Below, piece by piece: positions 2,490-17,730 of a stretch of 64,000 nucleotides of DNA. Numbering within the stretch: the stretch's first letter is position 1; each line of letters starts with the position of its first letter. Source of the DNA: Thalassospiraceae bacterium LMO-JJ14. Lineage in GTDB: Bacteria; Pseudomonadota; Alphaproteobacteria; Rhodospirillales; Casp-alpha2. The notes below the pieces were generated by a model. That model was not told the DNA's origin and ran no database searches. It worked only from the letters and a program-made list of their open reading frames with translations. Location of the stretch: contig CP134604.1 in the NCBI GenBank assembly GCA_021555105.2, positions 1,426,001-1,490,000 on the forward strand, given 5' to 3'. Made by a program: the position numbers and the translations under genes.

Positions 2490-2681
2490 GCGTCTTCTCC
2501 GGGGCGGGTAGAGTCGGTTTGTATGATGATGCCGGGGGAAGGGTGCGGCAAGGCTTCCATGTGCCGGGTTTAATAGATTTGGGATCGTTTCAGCGTGGTT
2601 GACGCTGGCCGGTCCAGCCCGTACATTCCCGCCGTCTTTTCCGGCCATCCCGAGTTTCCGATTGGGGCGCCGGACCCGCGT

Positions 2682-2771
2682 GGAGGGGTGGCCGAGTGGC
2701 TGAAGGCGCTGGTTTGCTAAACCAGTATACGGGAAACTGTATCGAGGGTTCGAATCCCTTCCCCTCCGCCA
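2682..2771 (+). tRNA. tRNA-Ser (anticodon GCT)
   Basis: A complete cloverleaf is visible. The acceptor stem pairs GGAGGGG (2682-2688) with CCCCTCC (2761-2767). The anticodon stem is CTGGT/ACCAG with loop TTGCTAA and anticodon GCT at 2716-2718. A long variable arm marks it as a class II (serine) tRNA, and the T arm contains GGTTCGAATCCC. The discriminator is G, and CCA is encoded at 2769-2771. The gene borders an accessory segment to its right, and serine tRNA genes are common integration sites. I did not find a second copy of the tRNA 3' end that would mark an attachment site. Confidence 0.96.
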
Positions 2772-2915
2772 TTTATGCGTTCGCACGTGTTCACAGCCAT
2801 TCACTAAACTCTCTATACATGTTGAAATATAAGGGATTGAGCTCAGCTTATCGCTTGCGCCAACATCTGCGCATTCGAATCTCAACCCTGCGCGAGGAAT
2901 CGGAGCCAAAGAGCA
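2772..2915. other. Intergenic stretch after tRNA-Ser
   Basis: No gene, hairpin or repeat that I can support lies between the tRNA 3' end and the last stop of the degraded dehydratase frame. Composition is more AT-rich than the flanking core genes. If the accessory segment entered at the tRNA, the junction would lie here. Confidence 0.5.
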
Positions 2916-4322
2916 TTAGGCTCGCGCTCTGACATCGGTATCGAAGAATTCATTCAACACATCGATATGTTCTGCAAAGTCGATTTTGCGCAAATCCCGA
3001 ATATCCTAGATCGCCTGTTGCTTGGGTGACGTTCTCGATTCCGTCGTCTGAACGGCTCCGGTTTCATGTAAAACCCAGTTGTCGTTCGCGGTCACCCAAA
3101 AATACGGTATATCTCGCCGGTCCATATCATGAAGTTCCGCACGTAAAAGTTTTTGAGATACCGATTCCGTGAAGTGCCCCGCGCTTGCGAAACGACGAAA
3201 GACGCTTTCCCTCCAGGCCGGGTAAAGTTCTCCTGCTGGGATGTTCAGCATATGGGTGGTGATGCTGTATAGGCGGGTCTTTCTGACCAAATATCGAATA
3301 CGAAAATCTCCGGAAGCTATATCGTCAATGATGTCGGTAAGGAGGGCTGCATTGTTCGTCATCCAGCGCATCGCGTCGATGTATCCGCTCTTGAAGGTTG
3401 AGCGGAAATCGGCGGGGTCCCATTCGTTGCCGTTGTTGTTGACTATTCTGTTGTGAAACGTCGGTGACGGTTTTTTGTATGAGACTGCTTTGCCGCTTTT
3501 GATTTGCAACCCAATTTGGAAAAGCCTCGCATTCCCTTTACCGCCGCCGCGTAGCGCCGAGAGAAGTGCGTTGTGGCTAAGGAGGCCGGTGCTTAATAAG
3601 CGTTCCTACGTAGTAACGGGTGCGAAATTTGAAAATATACATTCGGGATCAATGATCACGGGACGCTGGCCGTGAATGACGATATTTTCCATATGCAGAC
3701 CGACGATCCGAAGGGCATAGGCGACAGCGGTCAAAATACCAACGGCGTACATGAACGGTTTCGGTTGATTGGTTGCGCGAGACGTTGTCGTTAAATACGG
3801 AATGAAATACCAGTCGTTAGACGGGGACGATATGATTTCCGGCATCCGTAAATCGGTTTGCAGGCCGGTCGATACCTGGCTGAGAATATCCGCCAAACAG
3901 CGGTATGGGCGGGGATCCGCATGCTTCAGGACAAGGGACGTCGCATCGCCGCTCAACAACAAAGGGCGTGCCCCACCTTGATGTGAGTCATCGGCAAGCG
4001 GTTTGAAACTCTTCAATGCAGGGAAGGAGGAAATACATGTCGCCTCAGTGCATGCGAGCGCAGATTTGCGTAGTGCCTTTCCTAAATCACAATACCGTCG
4101 CTCCACGACCTCGTTGAGGCACCCAAAATCCAATGTTAAGGGGCCGTTTCCAGTTTCGTTTATCGCCGTACCAGTCGGCGCATGCAATGTCGGCGCGACG
4201 ATAGATATCAAGTCGTTGCGGATAAAATCGCGTGTGTCCGTTTCGTTAAAGCCGCTAACTCTCAATTGGTATGGACACTGCCAACCCTCCGGAGTGATGG
4301 CTGTTGTATATCGCGCTCTCAT
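2916..4322 (-). pseudogene. LanM-type (DUF4135) lanthipeptide dehydratase-like gene with two in-frame TAG codons
   Basis: One reading frame of 468 codons carries the landmarks of the LanM dehydratase domain in order. DDSHQGGARP (codons 111-120) matches the GDxHxxGR motif. LVLKHADPR (130-138) matches the KPR strand. GLHMENIVI (208-216) with VIIDPE (222-227) matches DxHxEN...IDLE. VRKTRLY (346-352) and RRDIPYF (402-408) follow. The frame is broken by TAG at codon 239 (3606-3608) and codon 439 (3006-3008), and ends with TAA at 2916-2918. Family similarity continues across both TAGs. The Asp normally opening DxHxEN is Gly here. No LanC cyclase domain follows, so even the intact form would have been dehydratase-only. 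The start ATG overlaps the GNAT stop (ATGA) and has GGTGGAG upstream. Most likely a decaying pseudogene; readthrough or sequencing error are alternatives. Confidence 0.75.
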
Positions 4323-4783
4323 GAGCTGTTTTCTCCACCTCGATCCGCTATCGAAAGATTAGATGCGCGCCCGCAGACCGCCATTTGCGGGCGGGCGGGA
4401 ATGCCGCCTTTGACGAAAAACGGCTGTTGGCCCGTGAACGGTTGAACATAGAGATCGGTATGACCAAAACGTTCATTTACGGCCTTCAATATCGCGCTGC
4501 CGATGCCGCTTCCTTGCCGATCCGGCCGAACTGCAATTTCTGCAATCCAGGATACGGAGGTGTCGTCGCTATAGACCCGCGCCATTCCGATTAGATGTTG
4601 ATCTTGGTGAACGAAGAAACCGAACACGCCGTCGCCGAACATCCGTTCGACCATGTCCGTCAGATGCTCATAGTGGCGACGCTCGCCAAAACCCACGGAT
4701 ACGTATAGATCAATGAGTTCTTCCTTTGAGACGTTGTCTGTCGTTTGCAGGATCCTGTAATGATTGCTGTTATCTTGCTGCAT
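4319..4783 (-). CDS. GNAT family N-acetyltransferase
   Basis: A 154-residue acetyl-CoA-dependent acetyltransferase. The core VSWIAEIAVRPDRQGSGIG (beta4, then the R/Q-x-x-G-x-G pyrophosphate loop at about residues 85-105) and the helix that follows are classic GNAT motif A. The later TDLYVQPFTGQQPFFVKGGI matches motif B, where family members carry Y/F. I place the start at ATG 4783, preceded by AAGGGAAAACC. The frame is open further upstream to 5035, and an alternative ATG at 4975 has AGGA at close spacing; that version would add a seven-cysteine segment to the N-terminus. The stop overlaps the start of the LanM-like gene (ATGA), so the two were translationally coupled. An acetyltransferase beside a RiPP-type dehydratase suggests a tailoring or self-protection role, but this is inference. 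Confidence 0.8.
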   Translation of the reverse strand: MQQDNSNHYRILQTTDNVSKEELIDLYVSVGFGERRHYEHLTDMVERMFGDGVFGFFVHQDQHLIGMARVYSDDTSVSWIAEIAVRPDRQGSGIGSAILKAVNERFGHTDLYVQPFTGQQPFFVKGGIPARPQMAVCGRASNLSIADRGGENSS

Positions 4784-5058
4784 GGTTTTCCCTTCATGTT
4801 TTGATTGGGGTTCTGTATTCGTTTTCTCGTGCATCCGGTTCGCTCTCGCATACAACAAGACAACTGGTTTTTCGTAACAAACCCTGCATTGAGAGAAGCC
4901 GATACGGCATGTCGCGGCATAGCCGCATTCGCATAGCGGGCTTGGTTCTCGACAACCAGACACGCAAAAGCGCATCAGTTCCTGTCTAAAAGTATCTGCT
5001 CTGCTATGAGGCAAGTCGATAGAAGTAAGTTGCATAAAATAACTATAAAGTAGTATTG

Positions 5059-5688
5059 ATGGCGAAAGAGATATTCATAGATTCGGCTGTGCTCTAGGAT
5101 CTGTGCTTGTTCCTAGAGGCGATGCCGGAGTTGCAAGATCCCGACATAACGCCGATGACGTTTGCGGTCGTCCTGGACGCGAATATCGCAATCTCAGACC
5201 GTCTTCATAAATAAGAGCGCCTGCCATCAAGCAGACAGCATTGGAGGAGTGCGCAAGGGCGGGGGGTTCTCAAATTTCATGCGCCGCGTTGGTTAGACAA
5301 CGGAATGACTAACAGTACAATTCCACAAGTAGCCGAGAGAAAAGGGCTTAACGAGGCCGAACTTCGATTGGCATGGTCAGACTACAAAGAAATGCTCATT
5401 TGGGATGACGACTTGCAATATCCAGCAGATACGGATTTCGGTGAAATTGACCCTAAAGACAAACCGTATATTCAACTTCAAGAGAAGATTGATGCCATCG
5501 GTATATTAAGCCGAGACAAGCATAATAATGAATTAGGTGGCAATTCTCTGAAACTAGGTTTTGTTTTGTCTGCGAGGCAGTACGCGAGAGCGCTGTCAGT
5601 GCACATCAGCATCGAACTTGGCGGCGTGATCATTGGCACTGTAACCATAGATGCGCGGGTCCAAATTGATGTCCTCAATCCAAGTTGA
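5059..5688 (+). pseudogene. Degraded PIN-domain protein gene
   Basis: Pieces of one PIN-domain (VapC-like nuclease) protein lie in order on the plus strand. AVVLDANIAISD (near 5158-5193) is the first acidic strand. KQTALEECARAG is in a shifted frame. GVLKFHAPRWLDN, then EAELRLAWSDY, then DPKDKPYIQL with GILSRDKH (the last acidic motif) return to the first frame. The upstream part MAKEIFIDSAVL is separated by TAG at 5095-5097. Two changes in homopolymers explain the shifts: one A missing in AAA near 5209-5211, and one extra G in the G-run near 5257-5262. The 127-residue piece from 5305 to 5688 (MTNSTIPQVAERKG...) remains open and could be called as a hypothetical protein by gene finders. PIN proteins are usually metal-dependent RNases, often toxins; no antitoxin is visible. 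Confidence 0.65.
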
Positions 5689-5939
5689 TACCCTTCGTGC
5701 ATACTGTCGCGTTGAGATCGGTTTTTCCGGATGGCCGCGTCCAGGGAAGATATAGACTTGGTTTGCCGTCCTCATGCGGTTGAAAGACTGTTATTCTTAG
5801 CTAAACGACGGCCCCGAGGCCAAAGCAGACGCTCTAGCCACCACGGCGATGGCTGTTAATGACCCATATCAGACATCCACACCCAAATTTCCGAAGTGCG
5901 TTCCCTGATGGGGTGATGGGGCACTGCGACAGCTCATTC
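5689..5939. other. Intergenic stretch, right edge of accessory segment
   Basis: About 250 bases between the PIN remnant and the end of the HlyD gene. No ORF with recognisable content, no direct repeat of the tRNA 3' end and no transposase relic was seen. It would contain the right boundary of the accessory segment, if there is one. Confidence 0.4.
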
Positions 5940-7220
5940 CTATCTTTCCCTGAGCGCCGTTTGAATTGAGGTCAAAAACGGGTCGAGAATATAGGCCATG
6001 ACGGAACGCTGGCCGGTGCGGATCGCACAGGCGACCTGGACGCCCGGCAGCAGCGCATAGCGAAGTTGCGCGCTTTTGAAATAGGTCTGGTCGGTTTCGA
6101 CGCGCACCTTGTAGTAGGGAATGCCGTCGCGCGTTTCGATGGTGTCCGGGCTGACGTTGACGACCTCGCCGACAATCCGTCCAAAGCGGATCGCCTCGGA
6201 CGACGCCAGCGACACCTGAACGGGCTGTCCGGTCTGGACGTAACCGACGTCCCGGGTCGGCAGGCGCGCCTCGATGACCAGCTTGTCGCCTTGCGGCACG
6301 ACATCGACGACCGGATGGCCCGGTTGCACGACGCCGCCGATGGTCGCGACATGCAGCGTCTTGATGACGCCGGCGACCGGCGAGCGGAGAACGGTGCGTT
6401 TCAGTGCGTCTTCAAACTTACGGAGCCGCGCTGCCGTTTCGCCTGCGTCCCCCTTTGCCTTGGACAGAGCTTCACGCACGCCCTCAAGATATTCCGCGTC
6501 GATTTCTTCACGATCTGCTTCCGCTTCCTTCGCCGCGGAGCGCGCACGGGGCAACGCGGCCTGATCATCCCTGACGCGCGCCGCAAGCGCGGCTTCTTCC
6601 TTCAGAAGGTCCAGATGATTCATTCGGTTCGAAAGCTGATCTTCCATCAACCCTTCGGAAATCTTGATCTGCTCGCGCACCAGCTTGAGCCGGCCTTTGT
6701 TGCTGGCGATGCGGCCTTCGATCGCTTTGATTTCGTCGCGGCGTTGTGAAATTCGTTCATTCTGCGATTCGATCCGGTTCTCGATGCGCGCGCGGCGGCT
6801 GGCGAACAGTTCGCGGGCGCGGCTTGTCTGCTCGGGATAGGCCTCGGCGATGCCCCCCGGAAACGATATCCGGCCAGCACCCGCCGATTCCGCTTCCAGC
6901 CGGGCAATCTCGATCTTCAGATTGGTTAGTTGCACCGTCAGTTGCGCCACGTCTGCGTCGGACCGCACCGGGTCGAGCTCGATCAGCGGTTCGCCCGCAC
7001 CAACACGCTGGCCCTCGCGAACAAGGATGGCGCGGACGATCCCGCCTTCCAGATGCTGCACGCTTTTGACCTGTGTCGACGGCACAACCTCGCCCTGCGC
7101 CGTCGCCACGACGTCGAGCCGCCCGATCAGCGCCCAGGCAATACAAGCGGACACCAGCCCGACCATCAGCCAGAGCACAAGGTGGGGGGCAGCGCCTGAT
7201 TGCCTTTGTTCGGGACTCAT
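5940..7220 (-). CDS. HlyD-family membrane fusion protein of a type I secretion system
   Basis: A 426-residue periplasmic adaptor linking the ABC exporter to the TolC-like channel. There is a short cytoplasmic N-terminus and one membrane segment (LVLWLMVGLVSACIAWALIG, about residues 14-33). The lipoyl half-motif GEVVPSTQVKSVQHLEGGIV (about 43-62), with ILVREGQRVGAGEPLIEL, is characteristic of T1SS fusion proteins. A long alpha-helical hairpin (about 85-270, rich in E/K/R/A) follows, then the second lipoyl half (LRSPVAGVIKTLHV) and the beta-barrel region VIEARLPTRDVGYVQ. The length is typical of the family. The ATG overlaps the ABC exporter stop (ATGA at 7217-7220), so the pair is translationally coupled. 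It is the last gene of the leftward secretion operon. Confidence 0.92.
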   Translation of the reverse strand: MSPEQRQSGAAPHLVLWLMVGLVSACIAWALIGRLDVVATAQGEVVPSTQVKSVQHLEGGIVRAILVREGQRVGAGEPLIELDPVRSDADVAQLTVQLTNLKIEIARLEAESAGAGRISFPGGIAEAYPEQTSRARELFASRRARIENRIESQNERISQRRDEIKAIEGRIASNKGRLKLVREQIKISEGLMEDQLSNRMNHLDLLKEEAALAARVRDDQAALPRARSAAKEAEADREEIDAEYLEGVREALSKAKGDAGETAARLRKFEDALKRTVLRSPVAGVIKTLHVATIGGVVQPGHPVVDVVPQGDKLVIEARLPTRDVGYVQTGQPVQVSLASSEAIRFGRIVGEVVNVSPDTIETRDGIPYYKVRVETDQTYFKSAQLRYALLPGVQVACAIRTGQRSVMAYILDPFLTSIQTALRER

Positions 7221-8920
7221 TCGCCGGCCTCCGATACACGCGGTTGCGCGCCCGCGCCCATGTTCGTCGGGCGTGGCAATCGGGTGACGCGCGGCGACGG
7301 CTTGGAGGAAAGATCAATCACCCATTCCGCGCCCTTGATGATGTTGGGATCGAAGGAACAGGCGATGATCGTGCCGCCTTTTTGTGCGTGCGCGTTCATG
7401 GCGGCGTAGACAAGTGCGCGGCCTTCCTCGTCCAGTCCCTCGGTCGGCTCGTCGACGATCAGAATTTTTCCACCGACGGCCAACGCGCGCGCCAGCGCCA
7501 GACGCCGACGGATACCGAGTGCAAGGTGGTCGCCGCCGTTGCGAATTTCCATGTCGAGGCCTTCGGTGCTGGCATTGATAAACGGGCCGAGCCCGGCGGC
7601 GGCGATCAACGCGTTGAGACCGGCTTCGTCCAGAGCCGGGTTCGCGGCCAACAAATTCTCGCGCACCGTTCCCGGCAGGAATTTCGGTTCTTGCGGCAGG
7701 TATGAAATCTGTTGCCGCCACCAGGCGGGAGAGACCTGTTCGAGGTCCGTGCCGTCAATCAGGATATTGCCCCGGGTCGGCGTCCTGAGCCCGGTGATCA
7801 GTTGTGCGACCGTCGATTTTCCGCTGCCGTTCGGGCCGCTGACCGCCAGTGTCTGCCCCGGTGCGACATCGACACTTAAATGTTCGAATACCGGTGCGCG
7901 CTGTCCCTGATAGACGAAGGCCGTATCCTTAAGCGAGATGGCGCCGGTGTACCCGGGCAATTCGACGCCGCCCCGCCGTTCGGGTTGCACCGTCTCCAGT
8001 TCATCCAGAACAAGCCGGCTTTGTGCAGCGACGGCGAAGGCACGCTGAATGCCCGCGAGACGCCCGAGCGGCATGATCGCGCGCGCGGCCAGAATGTTCG
8101 CACCGATCAATGCGCCGACGTCCAACAGGCCCTGAACCACAAGGTATCCGCCGACGGCAATCATGGTGACGGTCAACAAAGACTGCAGCGTCTGCGTGAC
8201 CGTGCTGATGAAATCCTGATTGGATGCAAACGATGCCTGGGCGGTGTCGCTCTCGGCGCGGGACTGACGCCAGCGGCGTTCTATACATCCGGTTGCGTCA
8301 AAAAGCCGCAAGGTGTCGGCGGCGCGCATCGCCGATTGCGTCAGCTTCTGACGAATGGCGCCTGTACGCTCCAGCGTGCCGGCCGGCGCTTTCAGCATTG
8401 TCTGCCCAACAAAGCCCAGCAACAGAACGGCAACGGCGAAGCCGCTCGCAATCATGGCAAGGGTCGGGCTCAGAAGCGCCAGCACACCAATGAACAGCAG
8501 CGCAAACGGCACATCGAGCATGACCAGCATGTTTGCCGGTCCGTATGCGGCACGGATGGTGTCCGGCCCGCTTGCCGCCTGAAACCGCGCCCGGTCGGTA
8601 AACATCGAAAAAACGGCGAACGGTGTACGCAGCAAGGCGTTGCGCGCGGTCTCGGCGGTTTTGTCGTCAAACGGCTGCGCGGCGCGTTGCGCGAGCTTGA
8701 GGCGCACACGCCGGAAACCGAACTCGAACACGACGGCGATGACCGCGCCGGCGGTCAGCGTCGCGAGTGTGGTATCGACCCCGAACGCGACGTAACGGTT
8801 CAGCACCTGAATGACGAAGATCGGCGCCGCCAGCGCCAGGACGTTGGCGAACAACGTCGCAACCAGCAACTCGAAGCCGAGGCCGGGACGGGAAAACAGA
8901 CGGGCAAGGATCGCACGCAT
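7217..8920 (-). CDS. Type I secretion ABC exporter (permease/ATPase) with degenerate ATPase motifs
   Basis: A 567-residue half-transporter: six membrane segments in residues 1-310, then the nucleotide-binding domain. It has no N-terminal C39 peptidase or C39-like domain. Walker A is intact (SGPNGSGKST, 361-370), as are the Q-loop (YLPQEP, 407-412) and Walker B with D-loop (KILIVDEPTEGLDEEG, 485-500). The ABC signature normally reading LSGGQ is DHLALGI (464-470), and the H-loop position reads IIACSFDP (518-525) with no histidine. Such a domain may hydrolyse ATP poorly, or pair with an unlinked partner; within the T1SS family this is a recognisable divergence, not proof of inactivity. It sits between the FecR/RTX substrate gene and hlyD and should export that substrate. 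Confidence 0.9.
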   Translation of the reverse strand: MRAILARLFSRPGLGFELLVATLFANVLALAAPIFVIQVLNRYVAFGVDTTLATLTAGAVIAVVFEFGFRRVRLKLAQRAAQPFDDKTAETARNALLRTPFAVFSMFTDRARFQAASGPDTIRAAYGPANMLVMLDVPFALLFIGVLALLSPTLAMIASGFAVAVLLLGFVGQTMLKAPAGTLERTGAIRQKLTQSAMRAADTLRLFDATGCIERRWRQSRAESDTAQASFASNQDFISTVTQTLQSLLTVTMIAVGGYLVVQGLLDVGALIGANILAARAIMPLGRLAGIQRAFAVAAQSRLVLDELETVQPERRGGVELPGYTGAISLKDTAFVYQGQRAPVFEHLSVDVAPGQTLAVSGPNGSGKSTVAQLITGLRTPTRGNILIDGTDLEQVSPAWWRQQISYLPQEPKFLPGTVRENLLAANPALDEAGLNALIAAAGLGPFINASTEGLDMEIRNGGDHLALGIRRRLALARALAVGGKILIVDEPTEGLDEEGRALVYAAMNAHAQKGGTIIACSFDPNIIKGAEWVIDLSSKPSPRVTRLPRPTNMGAGAQPRVSEAGE

Positions 8921-15806: not shown

Positions 15807-16391
15807 TTAGCTCTCGATCCGTTCGATGACCACGGGAACCGGTCGGCAAACGGTGTTGCAGACCGGCGAATGCTGCTTGGCATAGTTGAGAAGCTCATCA
15901 AGCTCCTGATCCGAACAGTTAGCCTGAACATGCAGGCGGATATTAATCTGCTCATATCCAGCCGGCACGGTTTCATCCAGTCCGAGAAGGCCCTGCAGGT
16001 CCATGTCACCTTCAAGTTCCGTTGACAATTCTTCGATTTCGATGCCACGGGCCATTGCGTGCAGGATGAAAGTCGTCGTTACGCAACCCGCGAGGGCATG
16101 GAGCAGAAATTCCACTGGATTGGCACCCTCATTGTTGCCGAGCAAAACGGGCGGTTCACCGTTGGTGAACTCAAATGGAACGGTGCGCGAGGTGTCTTCT
16201 TGCCCGGCACCATAGAAATCGCGGATCGAAGATCGATTCTGCCCACCGTTGATCCAGGTGTTGCGGGCGCGGAACTGAAATTTTGCAAGGCTGGGATCAG
16301 CCTTCAGTGCATTGATCGTGTCAGTGGCGGCTTGAATGTCTAAACCGTTCAAATGGGTCGCCTGTTGGGCGAGCGCGTTCTGTGTCGTCAT
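15807..16391 (-). CDS. OsmC family protein
   Basis: A 194-residue OsmC/Ohr-superfamily protein. GANPVEFLLHALAGCVTTTFILHAMARG (about residues 88-115) carries the first conserved cysteine in the long central helix. HSPVCNTVCRPVPV near the C-terminus carries the second (SPVxxT). These two cysteines are the peroxidatic and resolving residues used for organic hydroperoxide reduction in the family. The general OsmC subfamily fits better than Ohr because of the N-terminal extension and the GLLGLDETVPAG insert. The start is ATG 16391, with GGAG at 8-base spacing. A GlxA-type AraC regulator is divergently transcribed from 16528 and probably controls it. A hydrolase follows downstream. Confidence 0.88.
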   Translation of the reverse strand: MTTQNALAQQATHLNGLDIQAATDTINALKADPSLAKFQFRARNTWINGGQNRSSIRDFYGAGQEDTSRTVPFEFTNGEPPVLLGNNEGANPVEFLLHALAGCVTTTFILHAMARGIEIEELSTELEGDMDLQGLLGLDETVPAGYEQINIRLHVQANCSDQELDELLNYAKQHSPVCNTVCRPVPVVIERIES

Positions 16392-16491
16392 TGTCTTGAC
16401 TCCGTCTCTTGGGGTGATACTGGGCCGCTGGTCGACCCGGCTAATGGCGAGCAAGCTAAGGGCTGGAGGTGCATAATGTTAGTGTTCTATT

Positions 16492-16519
16492 TGCCAAAAA
16501 AGATCCATTTGTGCCAAAA
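16492..16519. promoter_or_regulatory. Tandem TGCCAAAA repeats in the OsmC/AraC divergent promoter
   Basis: TGCCAAAA occurs at 16492-16499 and again at 16512-16519, exactly 20 bases apart, just before the AraC-type gene start at 16528. Direct repeats two helical turns apart are typical of AraC-family binding sites. Autoregulation, and control of the divergent OsmC gene, are plausible. Confidence 0.4.
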
Positions 16520-16527
16520 TCGTATTT

Positions 16528-17556
16528 ATGAACAAATTGCTTGAACCGAAGCCCATTGAGGCGGTGATCCTGGCCCTTCCCGAAACGGCTGGTTCGGCTC
16601 TATACGGCATGGTCGATGTGCTGGCTTCAACCGGCACGCTCTGGCGGGAACTGGTCGGCGAGGACCCCGGTCCTCGCATGATTGAACCTCGAATTGTCTC
16701 GCGTGACCGCAAAACGTTCAAATGCGGGAATGGAATTCCGGTCACCCCCGATTTGACTATTGAGGAGATTCTAGCGCCTAAAATCCTGATCCTGCCGGAA
16801 TTATGGTTGTTGCCTACGGATGATATGAGGGATCGCTACGCTGACCTGAAAGAGTGGATTCGCGGCTGTTATGAGAACGGCAGCATGATTTATACTGCGT
16901 GTTCAGGCTCCGTTCTTCTCGCCGCTACGGGATTGCTGGACGGTCGCGAAGCGACATCGCACTGGGGCTATCAGGATTTGTTCCTCAAGAGTTTTCCTGA
17001 AGTCCATTTCAATCCAGTCCCAAACTTAGTTATTGCTGACCAAACGGCGCGGATAGTGACAGCCGGCGGCACGACTTCGTGGCACGATCTGGCACTCCAT
17101 ATAATCGCCCGTCATTGCAGCCCAGGGGAAGCCTTGCGGATCGCTAAGGTTTACCTGCTCAAGTGGCATAGCGAAGGACAGTTGCCATTCCAAAGTCTGA
17201 TCCGCCATCAGCCTCATGCAGACTCTATTGTGCGCAGTGCAGAAAATTGGCTCGCCGCCAATTTCCGTGAGCCCGATACTGTCTCAAAGGCAATTGCCGC
17301 CTTGTCGGTCCCGGAGCGTAGTCTGAAACGCCGTTTCAAAGTTGCGACCGGCTCTACTTTGATTGAACGGGTGCAAAACTTACGTGTTGAGGAAGCAAAG
17401 CGTTTGCTCGAAACCTGCAGCATTCCGGTGGACGATGTCGCCGCTGAGGTGGGATACGAAAATCAGGCGTTCTTCCGCCGCATCTTTAAGCGCTCCACTG
17501 GGCTGACACCAGCCGCCTACCGTAGAATGTTCAGCCTCCATGAAGGTGCTGAATAG
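16528..17556 (+). CDS. AraC-family regulator with DJ-1/PfpI (GlxA-like) N-terminal domain
   Basis: A 342-residue transcription factor. Residues about 8-200 form a class I glutamine amidotransferase-like (DJ-1/PfpI) domain with the nucleophile-elbow sequence ACSGSVLLAATGLLDGR; the Cys is retained. Residues about 235-338 form the double helix-turn-helix AraC DNA-binding domain (SVPERSLKRRFKVATG, then DVAAEVGYENQAFFRRIFKR and the TPAAYRR end). This is the GlxA layout, found in regulators of choline, betaine and amine-related genes and of others. It is divergent from the OsmC gene across 136 bases that contain tandem TGCCAAAA repeats. The ligand is unknown. Confidence 0.9.
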   Translation: MNKLLEPKPIEAVILALPETAGSALYGMVDVLASTGTLWRELVGEDPGPRMIEPRIVSRDRKTFKCGNGIPVTPDLTIEEILAPKILILPELWLLPTDDMRDRYADLKEWIRGCYENGSMIYTACSGSVLLAATGLLDGREATSHWGYQDLFLKSFPEVHFNPVPNLVIADQTARIVTAGGTTSWHDLALHIIARHCSPGEALRIAKVYLLKWHSEGQLPFQSLIRHQPHADSIVRSAENWLAANFREPDTVSKAIAALSVPERSLKRRFKVATGSTLIERVQNLRVEEAKRLLETCSIPVDDVAAEVGYENQAFFRRIFKRSTGLTPAAYRRMFSLHEGAE

Positions 17557-17730
17557 GTACGCTGTATGAGCTCGATAATAGGCAATATTTTAATCTACAC
17601 TCTTACAGCTAAGACCGCTCTGGGTCAGCAGCGGATAGTTTGCGTAACCAGCCAACTTGTCCGCTTTTGGGGACAAATCAGATGTATTGGGCGAACTCGT
17701 CTCGGTTTGCTGGCAGATCCGGCGCGTACG

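Follow-up and report, generated by a model that had tools for sequence, protein, structure and literature searches.

The 64,000-nucleotide stretch of Thalassospiraceae bacterium LMO-JJ14 analysed here (contig CP134604.1, positions 1,426,001 to 1,490,000; hereafter the window) carries on its minus strand, at 2916..4322, a stand-alone DUF4135 gene of the LanM dehydratase type that is broken by two in-frame amber stops. Translation gave a single frame of 468 codons, with TAG at codon 239 (3606..3608, minus strand) and codon 439 (3006..3008, minus strand). An earlier inspection of the letters (the sequence-only reading) had described this frame and its two stops, a DUF4135/LanM dehydratase signature, family-like sequence running across both stops, no LanC domain, a Gly in place of the first Asp of the DxHxEN motif and a GNAT gene as neighbour, and all of these points were borne out. 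The stitched translation matched PF13575 (DUF4135) with an E value of 8e-31 in a profile search, and its two halves matched separate parts of the profile (E 6e-16 for profile 43-176 and E 6e-13 for profile 255-376). Using an intact homologue as the query, tblastn aligned residues 1-465 of 470 across both window stops with an E value of 4e-116, which is far from chance. The frame scored 108 bits against the LanM profile TIGR03897, of which the cut-off is 304. No LanC domain was found in the window protein or anywhere in the source genome (one contig, 3.89 Mb), and that genome holds no second copy of the dehydratase. We consider it probable that the window preserves the remains of a small cassette for a ribosomally synthesized and post-translationally modified peptide (RiPP), built on a stand-alone LanM dehydratase and GNATs, and that the window copy is a pseudogene.

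The catalytic residues of the LanM dehydratase were identified in CylM, where D347, H349, N352, D364 and K274 take part in phosphorylation, while elimination of the phosphate involves D252, H254, R506 and T512; the mutants D347A and D364A left the peptide unmodified (PMC4550811). Equivalents were assigned from LicM2 and CylM alignments together with a family alignment, thus from sequence alignment alone, as AlphaFold models built from two-sequence alignments were too poor to use (mean predicted local distance difference test score 35 for the dehydratase and 51 for the tandem GNAT). All nine residues are kept in six intact homologues, as judged by hidden Markov model and multiple alignment, and correspond to D111/H113, K132, D207, H209, N212, D224, R342 and T348 in the homologue of isolate BH24. 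In the window copy, codon 208 (3699..3701, minus strand), equivalent to CylM D347 and BH24 D207, encodes Gly, so that 'VGLHMEN' stands at the site of 'DLHLEN' in 6/6 intact homologues. The remaining mapped residues are kept.

The intact LanC-less homologues were found in six genomes of the same order (G025, G050, G082, G122, G149 and G202), each with a GNAT neighbour. A seventh relative copy, in G129 (L019:1-1067), is cut by a contig edge and has one in-frame TAG, placed differently from those of the window. Two of the relatives come from Rhodospirillaceae bacterium LM-1 (CACUVI010000023.1) and Rhodospirillaceae bacterium isolate BH24 (JAERTE010000148.1). Each of the six intact proteins has about 460-490 amino acids; identities are 39-59% among them and 35-42% with the window frame. 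The BH24 protein matches PF13575 with an E value of 1.8e-36 and scores 128 bits against TIGR03897, again under the cut-off. LANC_like (PF05147) was not matched anywhere in the eight genomes, namely the window genome and those of the seven relatives. Therefore, lack of a cyclase characterizes the family and is not an effect of decay. A first scan of genome contigs with the window protein as query gave no match, none of the genomes sampled across the class (385) and the phylum (398) was found to carry the family apart from that of the window, and no relatives were found in viral contigs or phages. Plasmids gave weak matches only, mostly annotated as LanM, and these were set aside; the match in Azospirillum B510 is an ordinary LanM-like protein of 1015 amino acids.

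The order small open reading frame (ORF), GNAT, dehydratase is kept in 7/7 relatives, the small ORF of G122 being broken by an in-frame TGA or a frameshift in the draft. A search with a precursor profile added two further cassettes, in G316 and G100. In 9/9 cassettes found, including the two without a full dehydratase, the small ORF closes with the core C-x-[AS]-T-G-T-(xx)-C, after which only a few residues remain; its ends read KCRATGTCENIY, RCCATGTCDISW, KCRATGTCDIMP, KCRATGTCDITS, KCRSTGTCIAF, RCRATGTCDIFF, KCRATGTCDNMF, GCCATGTMDCERDAPV and QCCATGTSDCEND. The linker ahead of the core varies in length and sequence, except for a short L..xF motif that lies about 20-30 residues before the core. 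The N-terminus matched PG_binding_1 above the Pfam cut-off in all four ORFs tested (L006, L007, L019 and L063). The G050 ORF has an N-terminal region without relation to PG_binding_1 and shares with the others just the core and the L..xF motif. A conserved core, a conserved recognition stretch and a replaceable body together form the pattern of a RiPP precursor. The GNATs are mostly two-domain proteins with at least one acetyl-CoA P-loop pattern in each one examined, that of the window included. The G316 locus (L090:6046-8253) encodes a CRATGTC-core precursor and two GNATs, and its genome (81% complete) has no dehydratase; it may be a GNAT-only version or a case of dehydratase loss. In G100, a precursor and a GNAT accompany a dehydratase of which the middle is deleted and the beginning and end are left. 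With the dehydratase broken or missing in 4/10 cassettes (the window, G129, G316 and G100), we conclude that it has been lost repeatedly.

Next to the dehydratase frame, the window contains an intact single GNAT gene (4319..4783, minus strand; PF00583, E 4.6e-9) with its acetyl-CoA P-loop QGSGIG kept. The gene, which probably starts at 4783, shares 4 nucleotides at its stop with the start of the dehydratase frame, and its product is 50% identical to the only GNAT in the G082 cassette. Only this one GNAT domain is left in the window cassette. In the relatives, the precursor gene and the first GNAT domain lie at the site that corresponds to window 4784..5304 (minus strand), where no trace of either was seen; tblastn with five precursors as queries over window 2600-6100 likewise gave no trace of a precursor. 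Thus a precursor with a conserved core beside the enzymes, a feature of RiPP clusters, is absent from the window itself. A precursor acting in trans was also rejected, as the genome offered only PG_binding-domain proteins without the core, located in a prophage-like region, and three matches of the core pattern in the genomic DNA were taken as chance because none lies at an ORF end. A 127-amino-acid ORF without a Pfam match lies at window 5305-5688 (plus strand), between the cassette and a secretion operon.

The composition of the window frame also points to relaxed selection on its product. Positions that are invariant among the intact homologues are broken at 17-23% in the window copy, compared with 4-14% in each intact member when left out in turn, and the window rate is the highest of all copies compared. 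G+C contents at the three codon positions are 51/45/57% in the window dehydratase, against 61/40/57% in the window GNAT and 58-69/41-42/56-72% in four intact dehydratases. Because two TAG codons, the lost catalytic Asp, broken invariant sites, flattened codon-position G+C and the vanished precursor coincide, the window gene is a pseudogene of an unusual and apparently undescribed cassette, in agreement with the sequence-only reading, which held decay to be the simplest explanation. Its further remark that a cyclase-less dehydratase coupled to a GNAT would be an uncommon RiPP layout also holds, and the intact relatives extend it by a precursor whose core is nearly invariant and, in most cases, by a second GNAT domain.

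The gene families, their conserved order, the near-invariant core, the retained catalytic residues and the lack of LanC are directly observed. On this basis we infer a pathway, of which the dehydration step, the closing of a ring, the site of acylation, the removal of the leader and the biological role are put forward conditionally. An intact cassette would comprise a precursor of about 110-210 amino acids with a folded, usually PG_binding_1-like leader and the C-terminal core, one or more GNATs, usually two-domain, and the stand-alone LanM-type dehydratase of about 470 amino acids. The enzyme most likely works like the dehydratase half of LanM; CylM 1-625, from which the cyclase is removed, still dehydrates its substrate (PMC4550811). 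It would phosphorylate the core Thr with ATP and then eliminate the phosphate to yield dehydrobutyrine. A core Cys may add to the dehydrobutyrine without a dedicated cyclase, or the product may stay dehydrated. The GNATs would acylate the leader, the core or the N-terminus freed by leader removal.

The leader domain extends beyond these cassettes. The precursor-profile search found the PG_binding_1-like domain in 81/317 genomes of the order, and some copies bear other short Cys-containing tails (GCSCTEWDDQPWKSY, MCACTASDDNPWGS... and GCHCGPEGDQPF...). At L092:5209-7379 (G095), L097:6038-8258 (G141) and L095:5892-7619 (G138), a radical SAM gene and a GNAT gene lie beside a leader ORF with a short CxC-containing tail, the radical SAM gene of L095 appearing broken. 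The GNAT type of these loci also occurs downstream of the BH24 dehydratase. At L096:6038-7064 (G148), a leader ORF with the tail MCACTASDDNPWGSGPDDDLRF and a GNAT gene are present and no radical SAM gene was found nearby, whereas L097, with a nearly identical precursor, has one. The radical SAM loci may represent another RiPP type that uses this leader, and sharing of one leader among maturases would resemble the usage of NHLP and Nif11 leaders. We give about even odds to a new RiPP superfamily in this one order (members named Rhodospirillaceae), in which a PG_binding-like leader would be passed between a cyclase-free LanM dehydratase with tandem GNATs (CRATGTC-type cores) and a radical SAM enzyme with another GNAT (CxCxxxxDxPW-type cores), any thioether being closed without LanC. 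Further copies of the domain belong to large proteins, some of which are encoded in a prophage-like region of the LMO-JJ14 genome (C1:287904-330476; L051-L053), where several proteins have a PG_binding-like N-terminus fused to differing C-terminal parts.

Several points weigh against a RiPP cassette with a decayed window copy. The cassette is known from its genes, and no protease or transporter is part of it. Since the PG_binding_1-like domain is common in the order and occurs in the prophage-like region of the source genome, the small ORF might not be a precursor. In G316 there is no dehydratase, indicating that the enzyme is not always needed. Finally, the two window stops are known from the assembled sequence. 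Were they sequencing errors, or were TAG read through by a suppressor tRNA or by recoding, the window gene might be functional; the family sequence is indeed unbroken through both stops, and the G129 copy likewise has an in-frame TAG. However, the TAG sites differ between the two copies, and TAG terminates 12 of the 44 long ORFs in the window (ORFs picked mechanically) and is therefore an ordinary stop with no sign of recoding, on which ground recoding was rejected. Sequencing error may account for either stop taken alone but not for the remaining signs of decay, namely the missing precursor, the highest break rate at invariant sites and the loss of an Asp whose replacement in CylM (D347A) leaves the substrate unmodified (PMC4550811). 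A functional window gene is thus very improbable.

The nature of the intact system may also be read in two other ways. As the LanM dehydratase adopts a lipid-kinase fold (PMC4550811) and the cassettes are without a cyclase, the DUF4135 enzyme could belong to a peptide or protein kinase system that phosphorylates Thr in the C-terminal tail, with the GNATs acetylating, for regulation. We find this unlikely, because the intact homologues invariantly keep the equivalents of the elimination residues R506, T512, D252 and H254, which would serve no evident purpose in a pure kinase, and because Cys flanking the Thr pair on both sides suits lanthionine-type chemistry. An equally small likelihood is assigned to the small ORF being an effector or a phage-derived peptidoglycan-binding protein with a cysteine tail, the enzymes using another substrate. 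The wide occurrence of PG_binding_1-like N-termini in the order, joined to very different C-terminal parts and in some cases located in a prophage-like region, would fit such a protein, but the ORF adjacent to the enzymes ends in the same core in every cassette found, even in G050 with its unrelated N-terminus, and the domain bears a different short Cys-containing tail in the radical SAM loci, as in the NHLP and Nif11 leader families.

The genomic setting suggests mobility of the proposed RiPP cassette. A tRNA-Ser(GCT) gene (2682..2771, plus strand) adjoins the window copy, and a tRNA gene lies within 700 bp of 5/10 cassettes, being tRNA-Ser in the window, tRNA-Phe in G025 and G149, tRNA-Ala in G050 and tRNA-Leu in G100. 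The probability of this is near 3e-6 if the chance per site is assumed to be about 2.6%, which is our own estimate. In G002 and G005, two genomes of the same genus, what follows this tRNA-Ser finds its counterpart in the window only at about 48.2 kb and beyond, and about 45 kb (window 2772-48200), the cassette included, is interposed in the window relative to them. The G082 cassette is flanked by two similar serine recombinase genes (L006:5001-6647 and 16328-17635). The window showed no att-like repeat of the tRNA 3' end, and no dedicated integrase was found for the cassette. Overall, the behaviour of the cassette is that of exchangeable cargo. The HlyD/ABC secretion genes at window 5940-8920 sit elsewhere in G002 and G005. 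The G202 cassette (L016) has an FtsX-type permease gene on one side and an ABC ATPase gene of the same orientation on the other, possibly a split transporter operon.

The cassette enzyme shares the DUF4135 dehydratase domain and the phosphorylation and elimination residues with the class II LanM enzymes (TIGR03897; CylM, LicM2). It differs in having no C-terminal LanC in the protein or the genome, in its length of about 460-490 rather than about 1000 amino acids, and in the usually PG_binding_1-like leader of its precursor. Because the LanC feature is absent and the score lies below the LanM cut-off, the family is not classed as LanM. The selidamide-type systems (nostolysamide NpuA/NpuM/NpuN) likewise cluster a precursor, a DUF4135-type enzyme and a tandem GNAT, and their GNAT may occur without the synthetase; in contrast, NpuM is a class II lanthionine synthetase and the leaders are of the NHLP or Nif11 type (PMC13060382). 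Most relatives of the window cassette have the tandem GNAT as well, yet its partner is a dehydratase only. The acylated Lys1 of selidamides has no constant counterpart in the cassettes, a Lys standing immediately before the core in only some of them. In dehydrazole biosynthesis, the LanMbC enzyme CcaM also employs a DUF4135 dehydratase outside normal lanthipeptide cyclization, on a precursor with a large leader and a Cys-containing core, but it requires a fused class III-type cyclase domain and azoles made by YcaO (PMC10676384), neither of which was seen in the cassettes. The cassette protein ends after the DUF4135 region without such a fused domain, and inspection of the translated flanking ORFs, part of which were profile-scanned, revealed no YcaO. 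Lachnospiraceae LahM is reportedly a DUF4135-type dehydratase in a RiPP cluster as well, prior work attributed to Huo and co-workers in 2020 (cited in PMC10676384). Some class V lanthipeptides (lexapeptide, cacaoidin) close their rings without a dedicated cyclase, but their dehydration machinery (LanK, LanY and LanX) is unrelated and so far comes from actinobacteria (PMC12328550).

No described system of this kind was found in the open literature, which is weak evidence of novelty. One large survey began from LanC domains (PMC7268733), and the dehydrazole survey excluded DUF4135 proteins shorter than 500 amino acids (PMC10676384); owing to that starting point and that length requirement, the cassette family would not be captured by either. 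The family thereby exposes a blind spot of LanC-based or length-limited surveys. If our proposal is true, it would represent a natural use of the LanM dehydratase without any LanC, acting on a core only about seven residues long behind a folded PG_binding_1-like leader, and would offer a compact test system for cyclase-free thioether closure and for the role of tandem GNATs in RiPP pathways.
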